Assembly (NCBI GenBank): GCA_022627495.1
Contig: JAKEGJ010000005.1
Location: 1 to 40,227, forward strand
Length of the DNA: 40,227 bases
Reading direction: 5' to 3'
From: Microcaldota archaeon
GTDB lineage: Archaea; Micrarchaeota; Micrarchaeia; Anstonellales; Bilamarchaeaceae
Shown here in pieces: positions 5,882 to 23,037 of this stretch. Position 1 is the first letter of the stretch. Each line of letters opens with the position of its first letter. Position numbers and translations under genes: made by a program. The notes beneath the pieces were generated by a model, which made no database searches, was not told the origin of the DNA, and worked only from the letters and a program-made list of their open reading frames with translations.

Positions 5882-6961
5882 ATGATGAAGAGGCTGACGT
5901 TCGAAGATGCGGGCAAGCACGAGCGCCAGACCGGACAATTCCAGTCCGTAAAACGCGCGATGGCGGCGGCCCCTCTTATCGCGGGCCTAATCACCGCAAT
6001 CGGATGCTCGGATGCGGAACTGCCGAACGACTGCAGGGCCTATAATGGTACCACGGTCACCCTCAACCAGGCAGTCGACGGACAGAGCGTGGACCTTAGG
6101 AGCCTTGAAAACATCCCGGCCGGCTCGTTCCTCACCCCAATCCACATCGATTTCATCAACGAGGCGTACGCAATCGCGAGCGAAGGGCTGCCGCAGGATA
6201 CGAAGGCGACGCAGTCGCCTTCATACTGCCTCATGAGCGGCCCAAACGGAAGACAGAGGTCGGCGTATGCCCAGCAAAACGATGCGGACGGCGCCCAGCG
6301 CGGGCTTTACGTTCCGGAAAACCAGTCGCTCGATTCAGTCACGCTCATCAACCTCACAAACCATGAAATCGGCCATTTACAGCCCGGGAACCCGGAACAT
6401 GGCTCTGAAGTCCTTTCACAACTCAATGAATTCGAGCAGAAGCTGGCGGGATTTGTCGTGCTTCAAAACCAGGGCGCCGATTCCGGCCAGCTCGTCCGCT
6501 GGGCATTCCACGAAGCGCATTCCGGGCTCTACCAGAAGCTCGCAAGGACCCTGGAATCCGGGCGGGGGCGGGTTGGGGGCGAGCCACTTGACGCATACGA
6601 CCAGGCGAACATGTTCCTCTTCATCCGGCTCGGCGAAACCCGGGGCGATATCCCGGCAATCCGGTCTGAATTCCGCGAGCGCGTTGCGGACGGCACGCTC
6701 GAGGCGGCACTGGACGAAGCATCCGCCGCGTTCATGGCTGGGCATGGCACGGAAAACCTCCCGGACCTGTTCATCGATGTGAGGATGCGCCTCATCATGG
6801 CCATGGAGAGGCAATACGGCCAGGGGGCGGCATATTCCGAAGCGCACGCCGGTTTCCTTGCAATTGGTCCAGCAATCGGCCTTGAAGGCATGAACTGCGC
6901 CCTGACTGCCCCGCTTGCCCCTGGCCGACTATTCGCCATGCAGCGGGGACATATGCGATGA
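5882..6961 (+). CDS. Putative lipoprotein with HExxH metalloprotease-like motif
   Basis: 359 residues. A hydrophobic stretch with a lipobox-like AIGC ends at Cys42; the 27 residues before Met27 are unusually long for a signal peptide, so translation may start at Met27 (ATG at 5960). The central motif NHEIGH (His161, Glu162, His165) is the HExxH zinc signature, followed by His173 and Glu176 as possible further ligands; this is not the metzincin spacing. The rest is helical. Peptidase activity is inferred from the motif only. The 3' end may be frameshifted, because coding-like sequence continues in another frame beyond the stop. Confidence 0.6.
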   Translation: MMKRLTFEDAGKHERQTGQFQSVKRAMAAAPLIAGLITAIGCSDAELPNDCRAYNGTTVTLNQAVDGQSVDLRSLENIPAGSFLTPIHIDFINEAYAIASEGLPQDTKATQSPSYCLMSGPNGRQRSAYAQQNDADGAQRGLYVPENQSLDSVTLINLTNHEIGHLQPGNPEHGSEVLSQLNEFEQKLAGFVVLQNQGADSGQLVRWAFHEAHSGLYQKLARTLESGRGRVGGEPLDAYDQANMFLFIRLGETRGDIPAIRSEFRERVADGTLEAALDEASAAFMAGHGTENLPDLFIDVRMRLIMAMERQYGQGAAYSEAHAGFLAIGPAIGLEGMNCALTAPLAPGRLFAMQRGHMR

Positions 6962-7184
6962 GGTAGGCGCGGACATCAGCCGCCCGGTCGCTGTCTCTTT
7001 GTGCTGCGTCAGCGCGGAAGTCACGGCGGGCGTGGTCGAATTTTCGAAATGGAGTGTTGAGGCGAGCGGCACGAGGTATGAGAAGGATGGCGGCACTGTC
7101 AATTCAGGCGGCTTCTCCTATGGTTCTGTTACCTCTCTTTCAGCGGTGAAAACAGCCATGGGCCCAGATGACCCGTGCATCTGA
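6915..7184 (+). CDS. Coding-like tail in another frame, possible C-terminus of the HEIGH lipoprotein
   Basis: Downstream of and overlapping the HEIGH-motif gene, frame 3 stays open to a TGA at 7182-7184 with GC-rich third positions like real genes here (for example the run of codons for ADISRPVAVSLCCVSAEVT). It has no convincing ATG/GTG start or ribosome site; the only start at the left edge is TTG at 6915. Four Cys are present. I read it either as the true C-terminal part of the upstream protein after a frameshift near 6900-6930, or as a separate coupled ORF. Confidence 0.35.
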   Translation: MPLADYSPCSGDICDEVGADISRPVAVSLCCVSAEVTAGVVEFSKWSVEASGTRYEKDGGTVNSGGFSYGSVTSLSAVKTAMGPDDPCI

Positions 7185-7228
7185 ATCACGGCGCATCCAT
7201 TAAATTTTTCGCATTCCAATCCCCTGCC

Positions 7229-8071
7229 ATGGGCACTGCCGACTCGGAATGGAAAAAGAAGCTCACACCAGAGCAGTACGAAATCCTGCGGAAGAAGGGG
7301 ACCGAACCGCCTTTTTCAGGAAAGCTCCTCCACAACAAGGAGAGCGGCGTTTACGCCTGCGCGGCCTGTGGCGCGAAGCTCTTCCTATCTGATGCAAAAT
7401 TCGACTCGAAAACCGGCTGGCCAAGTTTTACGTCGGCCACGGAAAATGTCGGGATGCGGGAGGACAAATCCCTCTGGGCTGTCCGAACCGAGGTCTACTG
7501 CATGAAATGCAACAGCCACCTCGGCCATGTTTTCGACGACGGACCCCTGCCATCAGGCAAACGTTATTGCATAAACTCCGTTGCGCTCGCTTTCAAAACG
7601 GGAAAGAGGAAAACCGATGCCGCCATCTTTTCAGCCGGGTGCTTCTGGCATGTGCAGGAGGAATTCGACAAGCTTGACGGCGTGGTTAAAACTACGGCGG
7701 GCTACGCGGGCGGCGCGACAAAGAACCCGACCTATGAACAGGTCTGCGGGGGCAAGACCGGCCATGCCGAATCGGTCCTTGTGGAATTCGACCCGGAAAA
7801 AATCTCATATGGGAAACTGCTCGAAGCGTTCTGGAAGATGCACGACCCGACGCAATTGAACCGCCAGGGCCCGGATTTCGGCGAGCAATACCGTTCCATC
7901 ATCTTCTACAATGGCAAGAAGCAGAAACAGATGGCCGAGAAATCCCTCAAAGGGGAGCAGAAAAAGCACATGTCCAGAATCGTAACTGAGATTCTGGAGG
8001 AAAAAGAATTCTACCCTGCAGAAGACCACCATCAGAAGTATTATGCGAAGAAGGGCTCCTGCAGGTTTTAA
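7229..8071 (+). CDS. msrBA: Peptide methionine sulfoxide reductase, MsrB-MsrA fusion
   Basis: A 280-residue bifunctional repair enzyme reducing both R (MsrB) and S (MsrA) methionine sulfoxides. The MsrB half (about 1-127) has two zinc CxxC pairs (CAAC, CMKC), HLGHVFDDG and the catalytic Cys in RYCINS. The MsrA half (about 130-280) has the catalytic GCFW, GYAGG, GHAESV, DPTQLNRQGPDFGEQYRS and EDHHQKYY; the Cys near the end (GSCRF) is a likely resolving residue. Order is B then A, reverse of the commoner A-B fusion. I choose ATG 7229 because ATTAAATTT at 7199-7207 lies about 26 nt upstream (leaderless) and homology begins there; a longer in-frame start at 7175 adds unrelated residues. Confidence 0.93.
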   Translation: MGTADSEWKKKLTPEQYEILRKKGTEPPFSGKLLHNKESGVYACAACGAKLFLSDAKFDSKTGWPSFTSATENVGMREDKSLWAVRTEVYCMKCNSHLGHVFDDGPLPSGKRYCINSVALAFKTGKRKTDAAIFSAGCFWHVQEEFDKLDGVVKTTAGYAGGATKNPTYEQVCGGKTGHAESVLVEFDPEKISYGKLLEAFWKMHDPTQLNRQGPDFGEQYRSIIFYNGKKQKQMAEKSLKGEQKKHMSRIVTEILEEKEFYPAEDHHQKYYAKKGSCRF

Positions 8072-9861: not shown

Positions 9862-10839
9862 ATGCGCAGAATGGACGCGTTCATCGATCTTGCCGCGCGG
9901 GGCAAGGGGGGATTCTTGCGCTACGCCCTGTCGCTTGCGCTCGTCCTTTTCATGTGGCTTGCCGTGGGCTCGGTCCCGCTTGCGCTCGTTGTGCTGATAA
10001 ACCGCGGAATGCCCTTCGAGTGGCAGGGCGAGCCGGCAGTGCCCGGGCCCCTAAGCGGCATTGACCCGGTGCTCACATTCTATGTCCCGGTCGCATTCTC
10101 GTTCATCGCGCTCGCCGCCGGCCTTTTCGCATCGGTCCGCTACATCCATGGCAGGCCGCTCCTTTCCCTGATTACTCCCGCCGCCGGCATCAATTACGGG
10201 CGCGTTTTGACTGGCTTCTTGATTTTCCTCGCATTCAACGTCGTGGGAAACGTTGTATCATACCTCATCGAACCATCGTCGTTCGCGCTTTCGCTGGAAC
10301 CCTGGCGGCTACTTGTCTTCGCCCCCATTTACCTTCTGCTGACCGCAATCCAGACTACGACTGAAGAGATGCTTTTCCGAGGCTACCTGCTCCAGGGGCT
10401 GGGGCGGGCGGTCGGGAGGCCGGCGTTCGCGGCATTCCTCTCCTCCATCCTGTTCATGCTCGTGCACCTGGGCAATCCGGAGATGTCGAACGGATTTTTG
10501 CTGGCAGCCGCCTACTACTTCTGCGTCGGCTTGTGGCTCTCGCTCGTGACAGTTAGGGATGGGACGAGCGAGCTTGCAATCGGCGCGCACGCCGCGAACA
10601 ACATGTTCATCCTCATTGTCAATTACAAGTCATCCGCGCTGGAACTTGTGCCCTCGGTTTTCAAGATGACGCAAGCCGGCCCGGCTGATATGGCGCTGTC
10701 GCTGGGGCTTTTCATCGTCATGTCTGCGGCAGCCTACATCCTGCTCTTTAGCGGCAATAAGAAACGAATTCGTCAAGGCGCACCCGCAGCGTCGTCTGGG
10801 CAGGCGCCAGCCGCGAGCCGGCCTCCGGGTCGTAAGTGA
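9862..10839 (+). CDS. CPBP-family intramembrane metalloprotease
   Basis: 325 residues with about seven or eight hydrophobic segments. The CPBP (Abi/CAAX) motifs are present in order: TTEEMLFRG (Glu168-Glu169 and Arg173, motif 1), FMLVHLGN (motif 2 His) and GAHAANNMF (motif 3 His and Asn). Family members cleave substrates in the membrane, for example prenylated proteins or bacteriocin-related peptides; the substrate here is unknown. The Ala/Pro-rich tail after residue 300 is encoded in DNA shared with the convergent gene. TATA-like TTAATAAAT at about 9838-9846 fits a start at 9862 or the second ATG at 9871. Confidence 0.85.
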   Translation: MRRMDAFIDLAARGKGGFLRYALSLALVLFMWLAVGSVPLALVVLINRGMPFEWQGEPAVPGPLSGIDPVLTFYVPVAFSFIALAAGLFASVRYIHGRPLLSLITPAAGINYGRVLTGFLIFLAFNVVGNVVSYLIEPSSFALSLEPWRLLVFAPIYLLLTAIQTTTEEMLFRGYLLQGLGRAVGRPAFAAFLSSILFMLVHLGNPEMSNGFLLAAAYYFCVGLWLSLVTVRDGTSELAIGAHAANNMFILIVNYKSSALELVPSVFKMTQAGPADMALSLGLFIVMSAAAYILLFSGNKKRIRQGAPAASSGQAPAASRPPGRK

Positions 10840-11459: not shown

Positions 11460-12002
11460 TCAGCCGCCGTAATATGCGCGGAGCTCGTCGAAACCTACGC
11501 TTGCCGTCCCGTAGTTGGTTTCAACGGAGCACGAGCGGGCCGCTAGCGAGCAGTCGATATTGGCGAAATATTTCGTTATGGGATCTGCAGTGCGTATGTC
11601 GCATTCGTAGCTTTTTTTCGTGGCTGTAGCGCTTTCATCGCACGTGCAGCTGTAAACCATGGCCGCGCTGGAGCCGGCCTCCTCCTTCGCCCTGGCCAGG
11701 CATGCCGTCTGGACATTTGCCGTATCTATGCTGTTCCATAGCGACATGTCCTCCGCGCTGATATTGCCCGTGGTGGTATTGTGATATATTGGTCCGCCTT
11801 CCCCTCCGTTTGGGGTGCTTCCGCTGGAGGCGCCGCCGGTCCCGTTCTGGGGACCTCCGGCGCCGAGAATGGGGGGCGACGAGCCGAAAAAGAGTATCGC
11901 AACCAATCCGCAGGAAAAAACAAACAGGAGAAGGATTGCCGCCGCACCGAGCAGGTAGAACATGCGCGCAGAACCCTTCTTCGCTTTGCTCACTTCATCC
12001 AT
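11460..12002 (-). CDS. Membrane-anchored Cys-rich protein downstream of the dehydrogenase
   Basis: 180 residues: a basic cytoplasmic start, one strong membrane segment at about 15-40 (MFYLLGAAAILLLFVFSCGL), a Gly/Ser/Asn-rich linker, then a small external domain with six Cys (CLARAK, CTCDES, YECD, DCSLAARSCS). Unknown family. It overlaps the end of the dehydrogenase gene by 13 nt and must be co-transcribed with it. Confidence 0.6.
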   Translation of the reverse strand: MDEVSKAKKGSARMFYLLGAAAILLLFVFSCGLVAILFFGSSPPILGAGGPQNGTGGASSGSTPNGGEGGPIYHNTTTGNISAEDMSLWNSIDTANVQTACLARAKEEAGSSAAMVYSCTCDESATATKKSYECDIRTADPITKYFANIDCSLAARSCSVETNYGTASVGFDELRAYYGG

Positions 12003-13093
12003 CCCCGGTTGCGCATGGCGTCGGCCACGCGTTCCCTGGCGATTTCCATGGCCGCCTTGCGAGTGTCGTGGTCCTTCGTCCGTTCAAGCATCACTTTGGT
12101 GTTGTGCTTCAGCTTGCCCTCTACGACCTTGAACATGGTTTCGCTGTCCCAGCCCATGGTCTCGCAGTAGCTTGAAATCACGCCCCCGGCATTCGCCACG
12201 AAGTCCGGGAGCACCACGACGCCCTTCTTCATTAGCACCTGCTCTATTTCGTATTTGGCCGGCAAATTCGCGGCTTCCGCGACCATCTTCGCCTTGACGT
12301 TGGCGACGTTGTTCTTGTTGATGACATCCGGCCTAGCACCCGGCACCAGTATGTCGACAGGCATCTCGAACAGCTTGGCGGCGTCGAGCTTCTCGCCGTG
12401 CGCAGCTGTTACCGTTCCTTTTTCGGCCTTTATTTTCATCAGGTCCGCGTACTTGAGCCCGTTTTTGTCGTAAATGGTTCCCTTGGAATCCGATACCGCC
12501 ACCACCTTCGCCCCCCATTCGGTCAGGAATTTCATGGTGAAAGTGCCGACGTTGCCGAAGCCTTCTATGGCAACGGTCATGCCATGCAGGTCCTTGCCCG
12601 CGAACTCAGTCGCTGTCCTTGCGGAAACCGCGACGCCGAATCCCGTGGAGCCTAATTCGTGCGGAAGGCCGCCGACACTGTGCGGCTTGCCGGTGCAGGC
12701 CATCGGGGTGCCGATTTCGTCTGCGAACTGCGCCATCTCCCTCTCGGTCGTGTTCATGTCCGGCCCGGCGATGTACGAGTCCGGTATGACTTCCCTGATT
12801 TTCCTGGCAAAGGCGCGCATGTGCGCCTCCTTCTGCTCCGGAGTGAGCTTCCTGGGGTCGGCACGGATGCCGCTTTTTGCCCCGCCGAACGGCAGGTCGG
12901 CCATCGCGTTCTTCCACGTCATGGCGCGTGCGAGCCCCATCACTTCCTCGGTCGTGACGTCAGGAACCATCCTGATGCCGCCCTTCCCCGGGCCGCGCGC
13001 CGTGTTATGGATGGCGCAAACGCCTTGCATCCCGGTCTTCTGGTCGTACACCTCAATGATCTTCTCAAACCCGAATTCGTCTTCCCTTCGCAT
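11990..13093 (-). CDS. Glutamate/leucine-type amino acid dehydrogenase (short form)
   Basis: 367 residues of the Glu/Leu/Phe/Val dehydrogenase family, catalysing NAD(P)-dependent oxidative deamination or the reverse. N-terminal domain: GPGKGGIRMVPD, Lys61 in MTWKNA, catalytic Lys73 in LPFGGAKSGI, and Asp112 in GPDMNTTERE. The nucleotide-binding domain carries GFGNVG at 178-183. The PDMNT context is more like glutamate than leucine dehydrogenases, but the protein is about 50 residues shorter than a usual archaeal GDH, mainly at the N-terminus, and is nearer the leucine-dehydrogenase length; substrate is left open. A TATA-rich stretch lies at 13139-13153 and GAGG precedes the ATG. Confidence 0.88.
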   Translation of the reverse strand: MRREDEFGFEKIIEVYDQKTGMQGVCAIHNTARGPGKGGIRMVPDVTTEEVMGLARAMTWKNAMADLPFGGAKSGIRADPRKLTPEQKEAHMRAFARKIREVIPDSYIAGPDMNTTEREMAQFADEIGTPMACTGKPHSVGGLPHELGSTGFGVAVSARTATEFAGKDLHGMTVAIEGFGNVGTFTMKFLTEWGAKVVAVSDSKGTIYDKNGLKYADLMKIKAEKGTVTAAHGEKLDAAKLFEMPVDILVPGARPDVINKNNVANVKAKMVAEAANLPAKYEIEQVLMKKGVVVLPDFVANAGGVISSYCETMGWDSETMFKVVEGKLKHNTKVMLERTKDHDTRKAAMEIARERVADAMRNRGWMK

Positions 13094-13190: not shown

Positions 13191-14810
13191 TCATAGCGGC
13201 ACGCATCTCCTTCCCGCGGCGTCGCACCCTGCCGGGCAGGGGTAATCCTCGTATCCGACCGTGTTCCCGTCGCAGTGCCATTCGCGCAGGACCGTACTGT
13301 TCCGGCACATGTCCTCCTCGAAACGCAATCCCTTGGTCACATTGCCGGCCGTGATGTGGTCCAGTCCGCCGTCCGAATCCGAGCACGCCGAATCGACGCA
13401 TTTGCTCATGAAGCAGTACTGCTCGTCGCTGCATGCGATTTTGTCTGCGGCAAGCCAGTTGCTGTCGCAGTAATACTCGACCACCGTCCGGTTGTTTTGG
13501 CAGTAGTCCGAGACGTCGCTGGCGTACCCGGTTGCGCTCGTCATGGAGGCTGAACCCGATTCGTTCTCGTCCCTTCCGCCATCGCTGTCGGCGCAGTAGG
13601 CCTGGGCGCACCTGCCCATCCAGCACACGGCCCGCACGCTTCCTCCGTAATATGAATAGCAGTCGACGTTTATTGATGCGTAGTCGCCGGAATCGCAGTA
13701 ATACTCCTTCAGGTTGGTCAGGTTGGTGCATTCGTCGTTCCGGATTAGCGAGCCGATTGTGACAGAGCCCGAAGTGACAGGCACTTCGCCCAGGTCGCTG
13801 TCGAAGCATCCGGCCGGGACGCACCTGCCGGATAAGCACGTCTCGTCGCTTCCGCATTCCATGGCCGCGCCCGCGGGAGTCCCTTCCTCGCAATAATACT
13901 CCATCACGCTGGCGTTTCCCGTGCATGTGTCATTATACGTATCCGGTCCCTTCCTGACTGTGCCCGCCTCTCCCTTCACCCTGCCGCCGTCGCTGTCCAA
14001 GCATAGGACTGGCTCGCAGGCGCCATTGTTGCATTCGAAACCCGAGCCGCAGAGGACGTCCGCCGCCGCCATCTCTTCCCCGATGCACCGGTATTCCCTG
14101 AGGATGGCCGCGTTCGTGCAGTAGTCTGCATACGCTCCATGCTCGGTGGCAAGAGTGCCTTTCTCGTAAATGTCGTTTTCCCCATCGCTTTCATTGCAGC
14201 GCGGCTGCGCTGCGCAGGCGCCTCCGGAGCAGTATTCGCCCGCCGGGCATTCCAATGACGCGCTCATGATGGCGTTTCCCGGACCGCAGTAATATTCCGT
14301 CACCGATACGGTCCCATTGCAAATGTCCGCATATGCGCCGCCCTCTTTCCGGACCGTGCCCTTTGTATGGATGTCAGTTCCATCGTCGCTGTCGCTGCAG
14401 AGGTCGCCGATGCAGGCGCCGTTTTCGCACAGCGTCCCTGCCGGGCATGCCGCCGTCTCGACTTTAAGCTCCCCGCTTTCGCAGTAGTTCTCCTGCACGC
14501 TTCCATTGCCGATGCAGAAATCCTCCATTGCAGGCTGGCCGCGCTTCTGGGATGTTCCGCGGATAAGCAGGTTCTTCCCCCCGTCCGAATCCGAGCAGAG
14601 CGTCTCTGGCTTTGTGGCATTGCTCTGGCACATTCCACGATAATCCATTTTCACCCCGGACTGCGCCGCCAGGCATGGGTTCTGGTATGTTACCGCGTCC
14701 TCGCCGCATACATAATCGACTTCGGTTCCGCACTGCTGCTGCGATGCGCACCCTGCCAGGAAAATCACTGCCGCCAGAAGCTGGGCTACCCAGATAATGC
14801 TCCCTCTCAT
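13191..14810 (-). CDS. Surface lipoprotein with a Kazal-like domain and seven DSDGG cysteine repeats
   Basis: 539 residues. Lipobox LAGC with Cys21 after a hydrophobic signal. Residues 27-61 (CGTEVDYVCGEDAVTYQNPC...GMC) match the Kazal pattern C-x-VCG-D-TY-N-C. From 72 to the end are seven units of about 63-70 residues, each beginning C-x-DSDGG, then a Gly-rich stretch, a D-x-C, an (V/L)xEYYC step and two closing Cys (CxxGxC). Units 3, 5 and 7 deviate (NESDG, DSDLG, EWHC). Likely an external binding or protease-inhibitor-type protein; function is unknown. Such repeats recur in uncultured archaeal surface proteins as far as I recall. Confidence 0.75.
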   Translation of the reverse strand: MRGSIIWVAQLLAAVIFLAGCASQQQCGTEVDYVCGEDAVTYQNPCLAAQSGVKMDYRGMCQSNATKPETLCSDSDGGKNLLIRGTSQKRGQPAMEDFCIGNGSVQENYCESGELKVETAACPAGTLCENGACIGDLCSDSDDGTDIHTKGTVRKEGGAYADICNGTVSVTEYYCGPGNAIMSASLECPAGEYCSGGACAAQPRCNESDGENDIYEKGTLATEHGAYADYCTNAAILREYRCIGEEMAAADVLCGSGFECNNGACEPVLCLDSDGGRVKGEAGTVRKGPDTYNDTCTGNASVMEYYCEEGTPAGAAMECGSDETCLSGRCVPAGCFDSDLGEVPVTSGSVTIGSLIRNDECTNLTNLKEYYCDSGDYASINVDCYSYYGGSVRAVCWMGRCAQAYCADSDGGRDENESGSASMTSATGYASDVSDYCQNNRTVVEYYCDSNWLAADKIACSDEQYCFMSKCVDSACSDSDGGLDHITAGNVTKGLRFEEDMCRNSTVLREWHCDGNTVGYEDYPCPAGCDAAGRRCVPL

Positions 14811-14882: not shown

Positions 14883-15641
14883 TCATGGCCGCGCCAGCGC
14901 TTTCCTCGCCCGCTCCATCAGCGCGCCGCGCCATTCCCCATCTCCGATTTTCCCTATCGCCGAATCGAGGAAGCCCCCGACAATCAGGCCTGATGCGTCC
15001 TCCCGCCCCACGCCCCTCGACATCAGATAAAACAGCTTGGCCTCGTCAATCTGGGAGACCGATGCCGCATGCCGGGACGATACGTCGTTGTTCTCTATCT
15101 CCAGCTCCGGGTTCGCGCTGGCTCTGGCTTCCGGCCCAAGGAGCATCACATGCTCTGCCAGGAAAGATTCCGCTCCGGCTCCCCCTTTGCCGACCTTTAT
15201 CCTGCCCCCCAGCCTTGCTGAGGCCGACTCCCCCACGACGCCCTTCACGAGCACATCGCCTTTCGTGCCCTTCGCCTCATGGCAGAGGAGGGTGTCCAGG
15301 CCAAGCTCGCACTCATCCCTGCTGATGAACGCGTGGATGTCGTACGCTTCCGCCCCCGTCCCCTCCAGTATGCTGCTGACCGAGGCCTTCGCTCCGGAGA
15401 GCCAGAGGAACGAGCTATGGACGATAGCGCCCGGCCCTACGTGGTTCGTCAGCGCGAACGTTGCACCGGTATCGCTGACCATGCAGCAATGGACGCGGCT
15501 TTTTTCACCGGCATAAAGCTCGATTTTGGCGTCCCCTGCGGGTTTGAAGACTATCCTCGCCTCCGCCCCCGCCTCGACCCTGACTTCGGAGCCGCCAATG
15601 ACTATCGCCGACTGCCCGTTCCCCACTTCCAGTTTCCTCAT
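14883..15641 (-). CDS. sufD: SufD-like Fe-S cluster assembly protein (short)
   Basis: 252 residues of the SufB/SufD beta-helix family: repeated short beta turns through the middle (GAIVHSSFLWLSGAKA), ending in the diagnostic EIENNDVSSRHAASVSQIDEAKLFYLMSRGV...LIVGGFLD block. It lacks the N-terminal extension of bacterial SufD, as many archaeal forms do. With SufB and the ATPase SufC it would form the scaffold complex. TTTATAAT at 15665-15672 centres 27 nt before the ATG, so leaderless. It lies on the minus strand with one unrelated plus-strand gene between it and sufB. Confidence 0.82.
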   Translation of the reverse strand: MRKLEVGNGQSAIVIGGSEVRVEAGAEARIVFKPAGDAKIELYAGEKSRVHCCMVSDTGATFALTNHVGPGAIVHSSFLWLSGAKASVSSILEGTGAEAYDIHAFISRDECELGLDTLLCHEAKGTKGDVLVKGVVGESASARLGGRIKVGKGGAGAESFLAEHVMLLGPEARASANPELEIENNDVSSRHAASVSQIDEAKLFYLMSRGVGREDASGLIVGGFLDSAIGKIGDGEWRGALMERARKALARP

Positions 15642-21625: not shown

Positions 21626-21707
21626 GGCTTCAAAGGGCATGAGTTCCGAGGATTCCGAGATGCGTCCCCTTCTTGCGGCGCCGAAACCGCCTTCCCGCAA
21701 GCGTCGC

Positions 21708-21716
21708 TTTTATATT
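21708..21716 (+). promoter_or_regulatory. TATA box of RuBisCO gene
   Basis: TTTATATTT centred about 27 nt before the ATG at 21739, predicting a leaderless RuBisCO mRNA. Confidence 0.6.
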
Positions 21717-21738
21717 TTTTCGCTGGCCTTCCAAAAAC

Positions 21739-23037
21739 ATGTCAGGAAAAATCGACTGGTACCTGGAATTCGTGGACCTCGGATACAAGCCTGCGAAAGA
21801 CGACCTTGTATGCCTGTTCTATTTCGAGCCAGAAAAAGGGATAAGCGCCAAGGAGGCTGCCGGGCGCATCGCTTCCGAAAGCTCCACTGGGACCTGGACG
21901 ACCCTGTTCAAGCTTCCCCCCCGCATGAAGAAGCTTCAGGCGACGGCATTCGAAATCAATGGGAACCATGTGAAGATTGCTTACCCGAAGGGCCTTTGGG
22001 AGGAAGGCAATGCGGTCCAGCTCCTCTCCGGCATCGCGGGGAACATTTTCGGAATGAAGGCGCTCAAGAACCTGAGGCTGATTGACGCGGCGCTTCCGCA
22101 CGATTATATCCGGCACTTCAAAGGGCCGCACCACGGCATCGACGGCGTGCGCAGGATGATGAAGGTGGCCAAGCGCCCCCTCACCGGAGCGGTCCCGAAG
22201 CCGAAAATCGGATTCAGCGCGGCAGAGCATGCCCAAATCGGGTTCGAGACCTGGATGGGCGGGTTCGATTTCGTGAAAGACGACGAGAACCTGACCTCCC
22301 TTGCTTTCAACCGGTTCGATGAGCGGGTGAGGCTGATGTCCCGGCTTAGGGACAAGGCCGAGGGGCTTACGGGCGAGCGCAAGGGCGCTTTCCTGAATAT
22401 TACCGCCGATACTGAGACGATGAAAAAGCGGGCGGACCTGCTTCATGACAACGGGTGGAACTACTGCATGATAGATGTCGTGGTGGCCGGCACCGCATCG
22501 GTGATGACCATGCGCGACTACTGTTCGGACCTCGGCCTTGCGATACATGCCCACCGTGCGATGCATGCGGCTTTCGGAAGGAACCCGAAGCACGGCATAA
22601 CGATGCAATTTTTGGCCAAGATTATGCGCCTTATCGGCGTAACCAGCCTTCATTCGGGCACCGCTGTCGGCAAGCTGGTCGGTAGCAGGCGTGACGTGAC
22701 TGCAGTGGCAGACGTCCTTCGGGAGGCGAAGACAAACGAGCTTCAGGGCACCCTCCTCGGCCAGGACTGGGGCAGGATAAAGCCCGCGTTTCCGGTATCT
22801 TCCGGAGGGCTCCATCCCGGACTTGTGCCGGACGTAGTCGACATCTACGGGGACGAGATGATCCTCCTTGTCAGCGGCGGAATCCACGGCCATCCGAAAG
22901 GGACGCGGGCCGGGGCGAAAGCGACCATGCAGGCGCTTGAGGCCGCGATGGAAGGCGAAGCTCTTGCCGACAAGGCGAGGCGCCATCCCGAGCTGCACGA
23001 AGCGCTTGAAAAATGGGGCTATATGAAAACGAAGTAG
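21739..23037 (+). CDS. rbcL: Form III-type ribulose-bisphosphate carboxylase large chain
   Basis: 432 residues from ATG 21739, where homology begins. Active-site residues are all present by pattern: ESSTGTWTT at the N-terminus, GNIFGMKAL (Asn), catalytic Lys154 and Lys156 in GAVPKPKIG, the carbamylated Lys180 with Asp182 and Glu183 in GGFDFVKDDE, HRAMHAAF, loop-6 Lys312 in SGTAVGKLVG, and SSGGLHPG. GAV rather than GTI before the KPK is a small departure. Archaeal form III enzymes act in the AMP/nucleoside degradation route, turning ribulose-1,5-bisphosphate and CO2 into 3-phosphoglycerate. No AMP phosphorylase or ribose-1,5-bisphosphate isomerase gene is in the window. A zinc-ribbon gene follows by 5 nt. 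Confidence 0.93.
   Translation: MSGKIDWYLEFVDLGYKPAKDDLVCLFYFEPEKGISAKEAAGRIASESSTGTWTTLFKLPPRMKKLQATAFEINGNHVKIAYPKGLWEEGNAVQLLSGIAGNIFGMKALKNLRLIDAALPHDYIRHFKGPHHGIDGVRRMMKVAKRPLTGAVPKPKIGFSAAEHAQIGFETWMGGFDFVKDDENLTSLAFNRFDERVRLMSRLRDKAEGLTGERKGAFLNITADTETMKKRADLLHDNGWNYCMIDVVVAGTASVMTMRDYCSDLGLAIHAHRAMHAAFGRNPKHGITMQFLAKIMRLIGVTSLHSGTAVGKLVGSRRDVTAVADVLREAKTNELQGTLLGQDWGRIKPAFPVSSGGLHPGLVPDVVDIYGDEMILLVSGGIHGHPKGTRAGAKATMQALEAAMEGEALADKARRHPELHEALEKWGYMKTK

Follow-up and report, generated by a model that had tools for sequence, protein, structure and literature searches.

Kazal inhibitors act on serine proteases, and in their classical form they hold six cysteines in three disulfides, C1 and C5 pairing with each other. 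Two solved inhibitors lie closest to the domain described here, the leech-derived tryptase inhibitor (LDTI; PDB 1an1 and 2kmo) and the insect inhibitor GmSPI-2 (silk protease inhibitor 2 of Galleria mellonella; PDB 4hgu and 2m5x). GmSPI-2 has four cysteines, with seven residues between Cys5 and Cys13 and Thr7 at P1, and inhibits subtilisin and proteinase K (PMC4169406). Among archaea, a kazal-type inhibitor (arCOG10350) has been annotated in a sponge thaumarchaeote (PMC6697440), so that a Kazal domain in an archaeon is not new in itself. This was the one archaeal Kazal annotation among the open-access papers listed, and in the open-access collection searched no paper names Kazal together with Micrarchaeota or with Woesearchaeota. 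What is new at the present locus is that a GmSPI-2-type Kazal domain is linked to a repeat belonging to no named family, together with how widely that repeat occurs.

We analyzed a stretch of 40,227 nucleotides, referred to in its full length as the window, from a Microcaldota archaeon (assembly GCA_022627495.1, contig JAKEGJ010000005.1, positions 1 to 40,227). The source genome comprises 1.45 Mb in 29 contigs and is judged 82% complete. A minus-strand ORF of the window (14810-13191) encodes a predicted lipoprotein of 539 residues in which a Kazal domain is followed by seven six-Cys repeats. Its features and two of its neighbors are as follows.

13191..14810, minus strand: predicted lipoprotein, 539 aa, Kazal domain and seven six-Cys repeats (ORF, sequence, alignment)
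14748..14810, minus strand: signal peptide and lipobox ...FLAGC, predicted lipidated Cys21 (sequence)
14628..14732, minus strand: non-classical four-Cys Kazal domain, residues 27-61, C-x7-C-x10-C-x14-C (profiles, alignment, model)
14721..14726, minus strand: predicted reactive bond, P1 Thr29 - P1' Glu30 (inferred from the GmSPI-2 alignment)
14400..14597, minus strand: repeat 1, residues 72-137, 66 aa (sequence)
14199..14399, minus strand: repeat 2, residues 138-204, 67 aa (sequence)
14004..14198, minus strand: repeat 3, residues 205-269, 65 aa (sequence)
13809..14003, minus strand: repeat 4, residues 270-334, 65 aa (sequence)
13596..13808, minus strand: repeat 5, residues 335-405, 71 aa, longer C4-C5 loop (sequence)
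13386..13595, minus strand: repeat 6, residues 406-475, 70 aa, insert ahead of the second Cys (sequence)
13194..13385, minus strand: repeat 7, residues 476-539, 64 aa (sequence)
11990..13093, minus strand: Glu/Leu/Phe/Val dehydrogenase, neighbor kept at two orthologous loci; no functional link is claimed
14883..15641, minus strand: SufB/D-core protein, upstream neighbor kept at one orthologous locus

The N terminus is hydrophobic and ends in the lipobox FLAGC at Cys21, the sequence signal expected of an archaeal lipoprotein. An earlier note, made from the DNA alone, had described a lipoprotein with a lipobox that joins a Kazal-like domain to seven repeats of about six cysteines. That observation is confirmed, and each of the seven repeats holds exactly six cysteines; the repeat length was given there as 63-70 residues, and the measured limits are 64-71. 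The interpretation placed on it is partly supported, as set out below.

Judged from its sequence, the N-terminal domain is a non-classical Kazal domain of the GmSPI-2 type, with four cysteines (Cys27, 35, 46, and 61) and seven residues between the first two. C1 and C5 are both absent, which sets it apart from the classical form. By analogy with GmSPI-2 its cysteines would pair as C27-C46 and C35-C61, and each repeat would hold three pairs. A search with Kazal profiles, the check proposed in the earlier note, gave a divided answer: in a Pfam scan of the single protein both models fell just below their cut-offs (PF00050, 20.6 bits vs. 21; PF07648, 20.1 vs. 22.8), whereas the Kazal_1 stretch rose above the cut-off in the genome-wide search (28.6 bits). 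A paralogue (L008) is clearly above the Kazal cut-off at 32.7 bits, and the best PDB sequence match of the window protein is Silk protease inhibitor 2 of Galleria (E 9.9e-5). Residues 34-46 fit the Kazal core VCG-x-D-x2-TY-x-N-x-C, with Ala39 where Gly is usual. Across the 22 rows of alignment A2, Cys5, 13, 24, and 39, Gly14, Asp16, and Tyr20 are invariant, part of these residues being required by the motif with which the rows were chosen. From 22 rows, AlphaFold2 confidently predicted a Kazal fold: the model of the Kazal domain with repeats 1 and 2 had a mean pLDDT of 90.3 and a pTM of 0.53, and its Kazal part contains a strand (12-14), a helix (23-28), and a second strand (33-36), in keeping with a beta2-alpha-beta fold. 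Foldseek placed Kazal inhibitors on top, namely 4hgu (probability 1.00, rmsd 0.7 over 36 columns, E 0.03) and the leech tryptase inhibitor 1an1 (rmsd 0.5 over 36 columns); no match to this model reached E 0.001 or better, as is expected of a 40-residue part, although it still limits the comparison. VIA alignment to 4hgu gave Z 7.4 and rmsd 1.8 over 40 residues, where a Z below 8 is weak in general, and the best 50 rows comprised Kazal inhibitors, follistatin-family or related proteins (Fstl1, hevin), and complement factor I or complement-complex entries. The models thus gave no sign of the non-Kazal fold that would have spoken against the earlier assignment.

The modeled domain has its fold in common with LDTI, which has one further disulfide and is a stand-alone inhibitor, unlike the repeat-linked domain of the window. 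With GmSPI-2 it shares the count and spacing of the cysteines, a Thr at P1, a Glu at P1', and the lack of the classical C1 and C5; the fold of the model is also the same, with strands and helix in the same positions (PMC4169406). The two differ at P2, which is Thr in GmSPI-2 and Gly in the window domain, and in setting, since GmSPI-2 is a free 36-residue insect inhibitor whereas the window domain lies close to the membrane in a predicted seven-repeat lipoprotein. The thaumarchaeal arCOG10350 comes from a different phylum and has in common with the window protein that it is a Kazal annotation in an archaeon (PMC6697440). Multi-Kazal proteins of Woeseiaceae and other bacteria (among L064-L103) also contain small non-eukaryotic Kazal modules, but as tandem arrays, and the six-Cys repeat profile had no match in them among the matches listed. 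Such arrays were seen in Woeseiaceae, other proteobacteria, Myxococcota, and Bacteroidota, with more than 20 domains in L102, again among the matches listed.

The position of the Kazal domain is a common one among proteins of this kind. A lipobox-like motif lies upstream of 32 of the 38 Kazal domains in repeat-bearing proteins, the window protein included, and in 22 of these 32 cases with a detectable lipobox 3-11 residues separate the lipobox Cys from the first Kazal Cys (five in the window protein). In proteins without repeats, spacing as short as this was found in 4 of 33, counting later Kazal domains of the same protein. This short spacing implies that the Kazal domain would sit at the membrane with the repeats pointing outward. 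We propose tentatively, at a probability of about 0.42, that the window protein inhibits serine proteases close to the membrane, from the base of a stalk braced by disulfides, and is aimed at foreign proteases. The protein would be exported, trimmed to Cys21, and held at the membrane by lipid. After five residues would follow the GmSPI-2-type Kazal domain, at the base of the molecule and adjoining the membrane, from which seven beta repeats, presumably braced by disulfides, would reach outward as a stalk. The loop Cys27-Gly-Thr29-Glu30, if exposed, could slot like a substrate into the active site of a secreted subtilisin- or proteinase K-class serine protease and block it by the standard Kazal mechanism. 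Both the base near the membrane and the cell surface might in this way be guarded from proteases released by surrounding microbes. Support for this proposal comes from the loop, the fold, the selection on the protein, a Kazal-DUF333-serpin protein of the same order, two DsbA-like proteins, and the failure to find a subtilase in the source genome; counting against it are the loss of the loop in paralogues, the Gly at P2, the failure to find VKOR, and the membrane-proximal position, since so short a spacer to the lipid anchor might make it hard for a protease to dock. Little is known about the survival of DPANN archaea on or between other microbes, of which many secrete proteases, and a protease inhibitor anchored at the surface, if true, would be a testable defense trait. 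The parts are small (about 40 aa for the Kazal domain and 65 aa for one repeat), which makes direct expression and assay feasible.

The orthologue group of the window protein is seen in six of the 43 genomes of its family (G000, G009, G008, G036, G035, and G025), a judgment made from scores and the alignment of repeats rather than from a tree. The G025 copy is cut short, its Kazal part missing, and that of G035 has eight repeats. The closest relatives in named genomes belong to records labeled Micrarchaeota, 'Candidatus ainarchaeum', or 'archaeon', which makes a micrarchaeote, a DPANN archaeon, the most likely host. In alignment A1, which sets the window protein beside four relatives at 67, 55, 38, and 37% identity, all 47 of its cysteines are invariant. 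The mature protein is under purifying selection, with dN/dS of 0.20, 0.20, and 0.23 in three pairs, ratios that are rough because dS is about 1.2 to 2.0; the 37 codons of the Kazal part gave 0.20, 0.20, and 0.48. The invariant cysteines and the mature-protein ratios lead us to reject a chance origin. Gene order from the dehydrogenase onward to the CPBP gene is kept at two orthologous loci (L043 and L040), and the Suf genes stay beside the orthologue at L043, while L040 is cut on that side. At the more distant orthologous loci L041 and L042, no neighbor in common was found at E 1e-6 in the available DNA. The source genome encodes at least three further proteins of the same kind, hence at least four in all. 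A second group (L008, L016-L019, L021-L023, and L027) combines a Kazal domain and about four repeats with a similar C-terminal region of about 200 aa, which had no Pfam match in L008, the one member scanned.

Within the orthologue group (five rows of A1, window included), P1 is a small polar residue (T, T, N, S, and S), P1' is Glu in all five, and P2 is Gly or Ser. Strong Kazal inhibitors have Thr at P2. A motif search returned 22 distinct Kazal domains with four cysteines in repeat-bearing proteins; since the motif requires four cysteines and no extra Cys between them, the number four holds by construction. The reactive loop is shortened from C-x7-C to C-x4-C in six of the 22 (L009, L022, L024, L039, L047, and L050) and so cannot form a normal reactive site there; not every member can therefore be an inhibitor. 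Outside the orthologue group, the remaining 11 full-length loops carry Asp at P1 in five cases and Ala, Gln, Lys, Gly, Pro, and Glu once each, so that eight of the 11 have Asp, Glu, Pro, or Gly, which at P1 are poor for most serine proteases and count against inhibition. A wider parse of repeat-bearing proteins gave 30 seven-residue loops out of 35 (L012 and L154 included), one of six residues, and four of four residues, with two further four-residue loops (L047 and L050) counted apart. Loops of the textbook form T-x-E, which speak for inhibition, number four in repeat-bearing proteins and 16 among the 54 seven-residue loops of class Kazal proteins without the repeat; these loop counts are drawn from retrieved loci, a subset of the class-wide Kazal_1 matches. 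Six-Cys Kazal domains with repeats also exist (L106, L117, L135, and L138). From its loop sequences, the family likely holds both inhibitors and non-inhibitors, the window protein falling on the inhibitor side with the Gly at P2 as a reservation.

The main rival to an inhibitor is a binding or adhesin stalk. Here the repeats would do the work, making contact with a matrix or with a partner cell, while the Kazal domain would serve as a non-inhibiting structural cap or spacer, as Kazal-like modules do in follistatin or agrin. A Kazal domain kept in six of 22 cases despite a deleted reactive loop is what such a stalk would lead one to expect, and the membrane-adjoining position, the varying number of repeats (3 to 14 in the proteins examined), and the appearance of follistatin and Fstl1 modules among the structural matches agree with it. 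So does the finding that 50 of the 80 repeat-bearing genomes of the class have no Kazal_1 match, a number to be read as an upper bound, since Kazal_1 misses divergent domains. This explanation sits poorly with the full-length loop and invariant P1' Glu of the protein's own orthologues, its partner is hypothetical, and the repeat matches no described family in 16 proteins; we regard it as quite possible, though we would not expect it to prevail.

The repeat itself follows the approximate pattern C-x-D-[ST]-D-x-G ... G-[TS] ... D-x-C ... EYYC ... C ... C-x2-G-x-C. Pfam and NCBIfam scans of 16 proteins matched it to no family, and the known adhesin domain that the earlier note had considered as an objection was not encountered there; a sequence search of solved chains found no convincing relative (best E 0.7). 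It is present in 80 of the 246 genomes of the class, and also in contigs labeled Woesearchaeota, Pacearchaeota, Aenigmatarchaeota, and Nanoarchaeota and in CPR contigs (Peribacteria, Paceibacterota, and Staskawiczbacteria). The domain is widespread, looks extracellular, and lacks a Pfam or NCBIfam model; in DPANN and CPR cells it could serve to recognize partners. In single cases the repeat is combined with a DsbA-like domain (L091) or with a subtilase, the latter a Woesearchaeote ORF (L052:2049-5834, plus strand) that contains an I9 propeptide and four DSDGG repeats. When the full protein was modeled (pLDDT 85.7, pTM 0.39), the repeats were predicted to be all-beta, with uncertain packing against each other. 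In VIA the three rows of this model above Z 5 were Kazal inhibitors and the best row within the repeats reached Z 3.3; as the repeats were modeled with the rest of the protein, the lack of a structural match is not proof of a new fold. A Foldseek likeness of the full model to DDB1 propellers (15 matches pass E 0.001) was set aside at TM of about 0.1 and rmsd of about 25-30.

Among 304 full-length distinct repeats, the six cysteines are missing in 12, 0, 0, 4, 8, and 10 cases, by position. Losses are too few for disulfide pairing to be read from joint loss, the lowest of 15 uncorrected p-values being 0.025 (Cys5-Cys6). Cysteines so rarely lost, in a multigene family with at least four members in the source genome, would also suit a passive disulfide-rich coat that toughens the surface while neither domain binds anything specific. 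Orthologues, in contrast, correspond repeat by repeat, including the position-specific inserts in repeats 5 and 6, which suggests specific contacts and makes a mere coat improbable.

Regarding the cell in which an anchored inhibitor would act, the source genome encodes two DsbA-like proteins (PF13462), so that oxidative folding is plausible from gene content; no VKOR was found in this 82%-complete genome. A search of the same genome for the subtilisin family (S8 only) gave no match, which is consistent with a foreign target; the target, if there is one, is probably foreign. The earlier note had also brought nearby HEIGH and CPBP proteases to bear on a surface inhibitor or adhesin role. The CPBP protein (9862-10839), 2.4 kb away, is a member of the Rce1-like intramembrane protease family, and the HEIGH ORF (5882-6961, plus strand), for which no Pfam family was found, has a metalloprotease-type motif. 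Neither is presumably a serine protease of a Kazal-sensitive kind, and because Kazal inhibitors act on serine proteases, these neighbors say nothing on function. Regulation of a surface protease of the cell's own, for which the CPBP gene staying nearby at L043 and L040 might speak, is accordingly very improbable and was dropped as a leading idea, given neighbors of the wrong protease classes, the lack of such neighbors at L041 and L042 at E 1e-6 in the available DNA, and the S8 result.

The earlier note had called Kazal domains unusual in archaea; in this archaeal class they are common, Kazal_1 being found in at least 42 of 246 genomes. The count is a lower bound because G036 has no Kazal_1 match and yet encodes an orthologue of the window protein. 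Kazal_1 and the repeat occur together in 30 class genomes vs. 13.7 expected (Fisher p 2e-8, uncorrected for relatedness). A serpin is present in 22 of the 246 genomes, and in one of the 42 with Kazal_1 (3.8 expected, lower-tail p 0.08); within the family of 43 genomes, 16 have Kazal_1, six have a serpin, and none has both (p 0.049). Since related genomes are not independent and these statistics are too weak, we make no claim that serpin and Kazal are alternatives in different genomes. A genome of the same order (G048) encodes a predicted lipoprotein (L110:1201-3051, plus strand) in which a Kazal domain and two DUF333 stretches are joined to a full-length serpin whose Ala-rich hinge looks inhibitory; this genome has 6% contamination. 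By its domain content, the Kazal-serpin lipoprotein suggests that these archaea use their surface for protease inhibition. One may extend the proposed inhibitor to an anti-proteolysis system of Micrarchaeota, in which a lipid-anchored Kazal domain (serpins in other genomes) at the foot of the stalk would block foreign proteases that shed stalks, duplicates without the loop would have turned into pure binding stalks, and the stalk would be a new disulfide-rich domain common to DPANN and CPR; taken as a whole, this is unlikely.

Another protein with Kazal domains and DUF333 (L108:1369-2280, plus strand) has three Kazal domains with K, D, and T at P1, fused to DUF333 and a cytochrome b5-like domain. 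Elsewhere in the window, a RuBisCO large-chain homologue (21673-23037, plus strand) is encoded in this small archaeal genome, and a fused methionine sulfoxide reductase with SelR and PMSR domains lies at 7175-8071 (plus strand).
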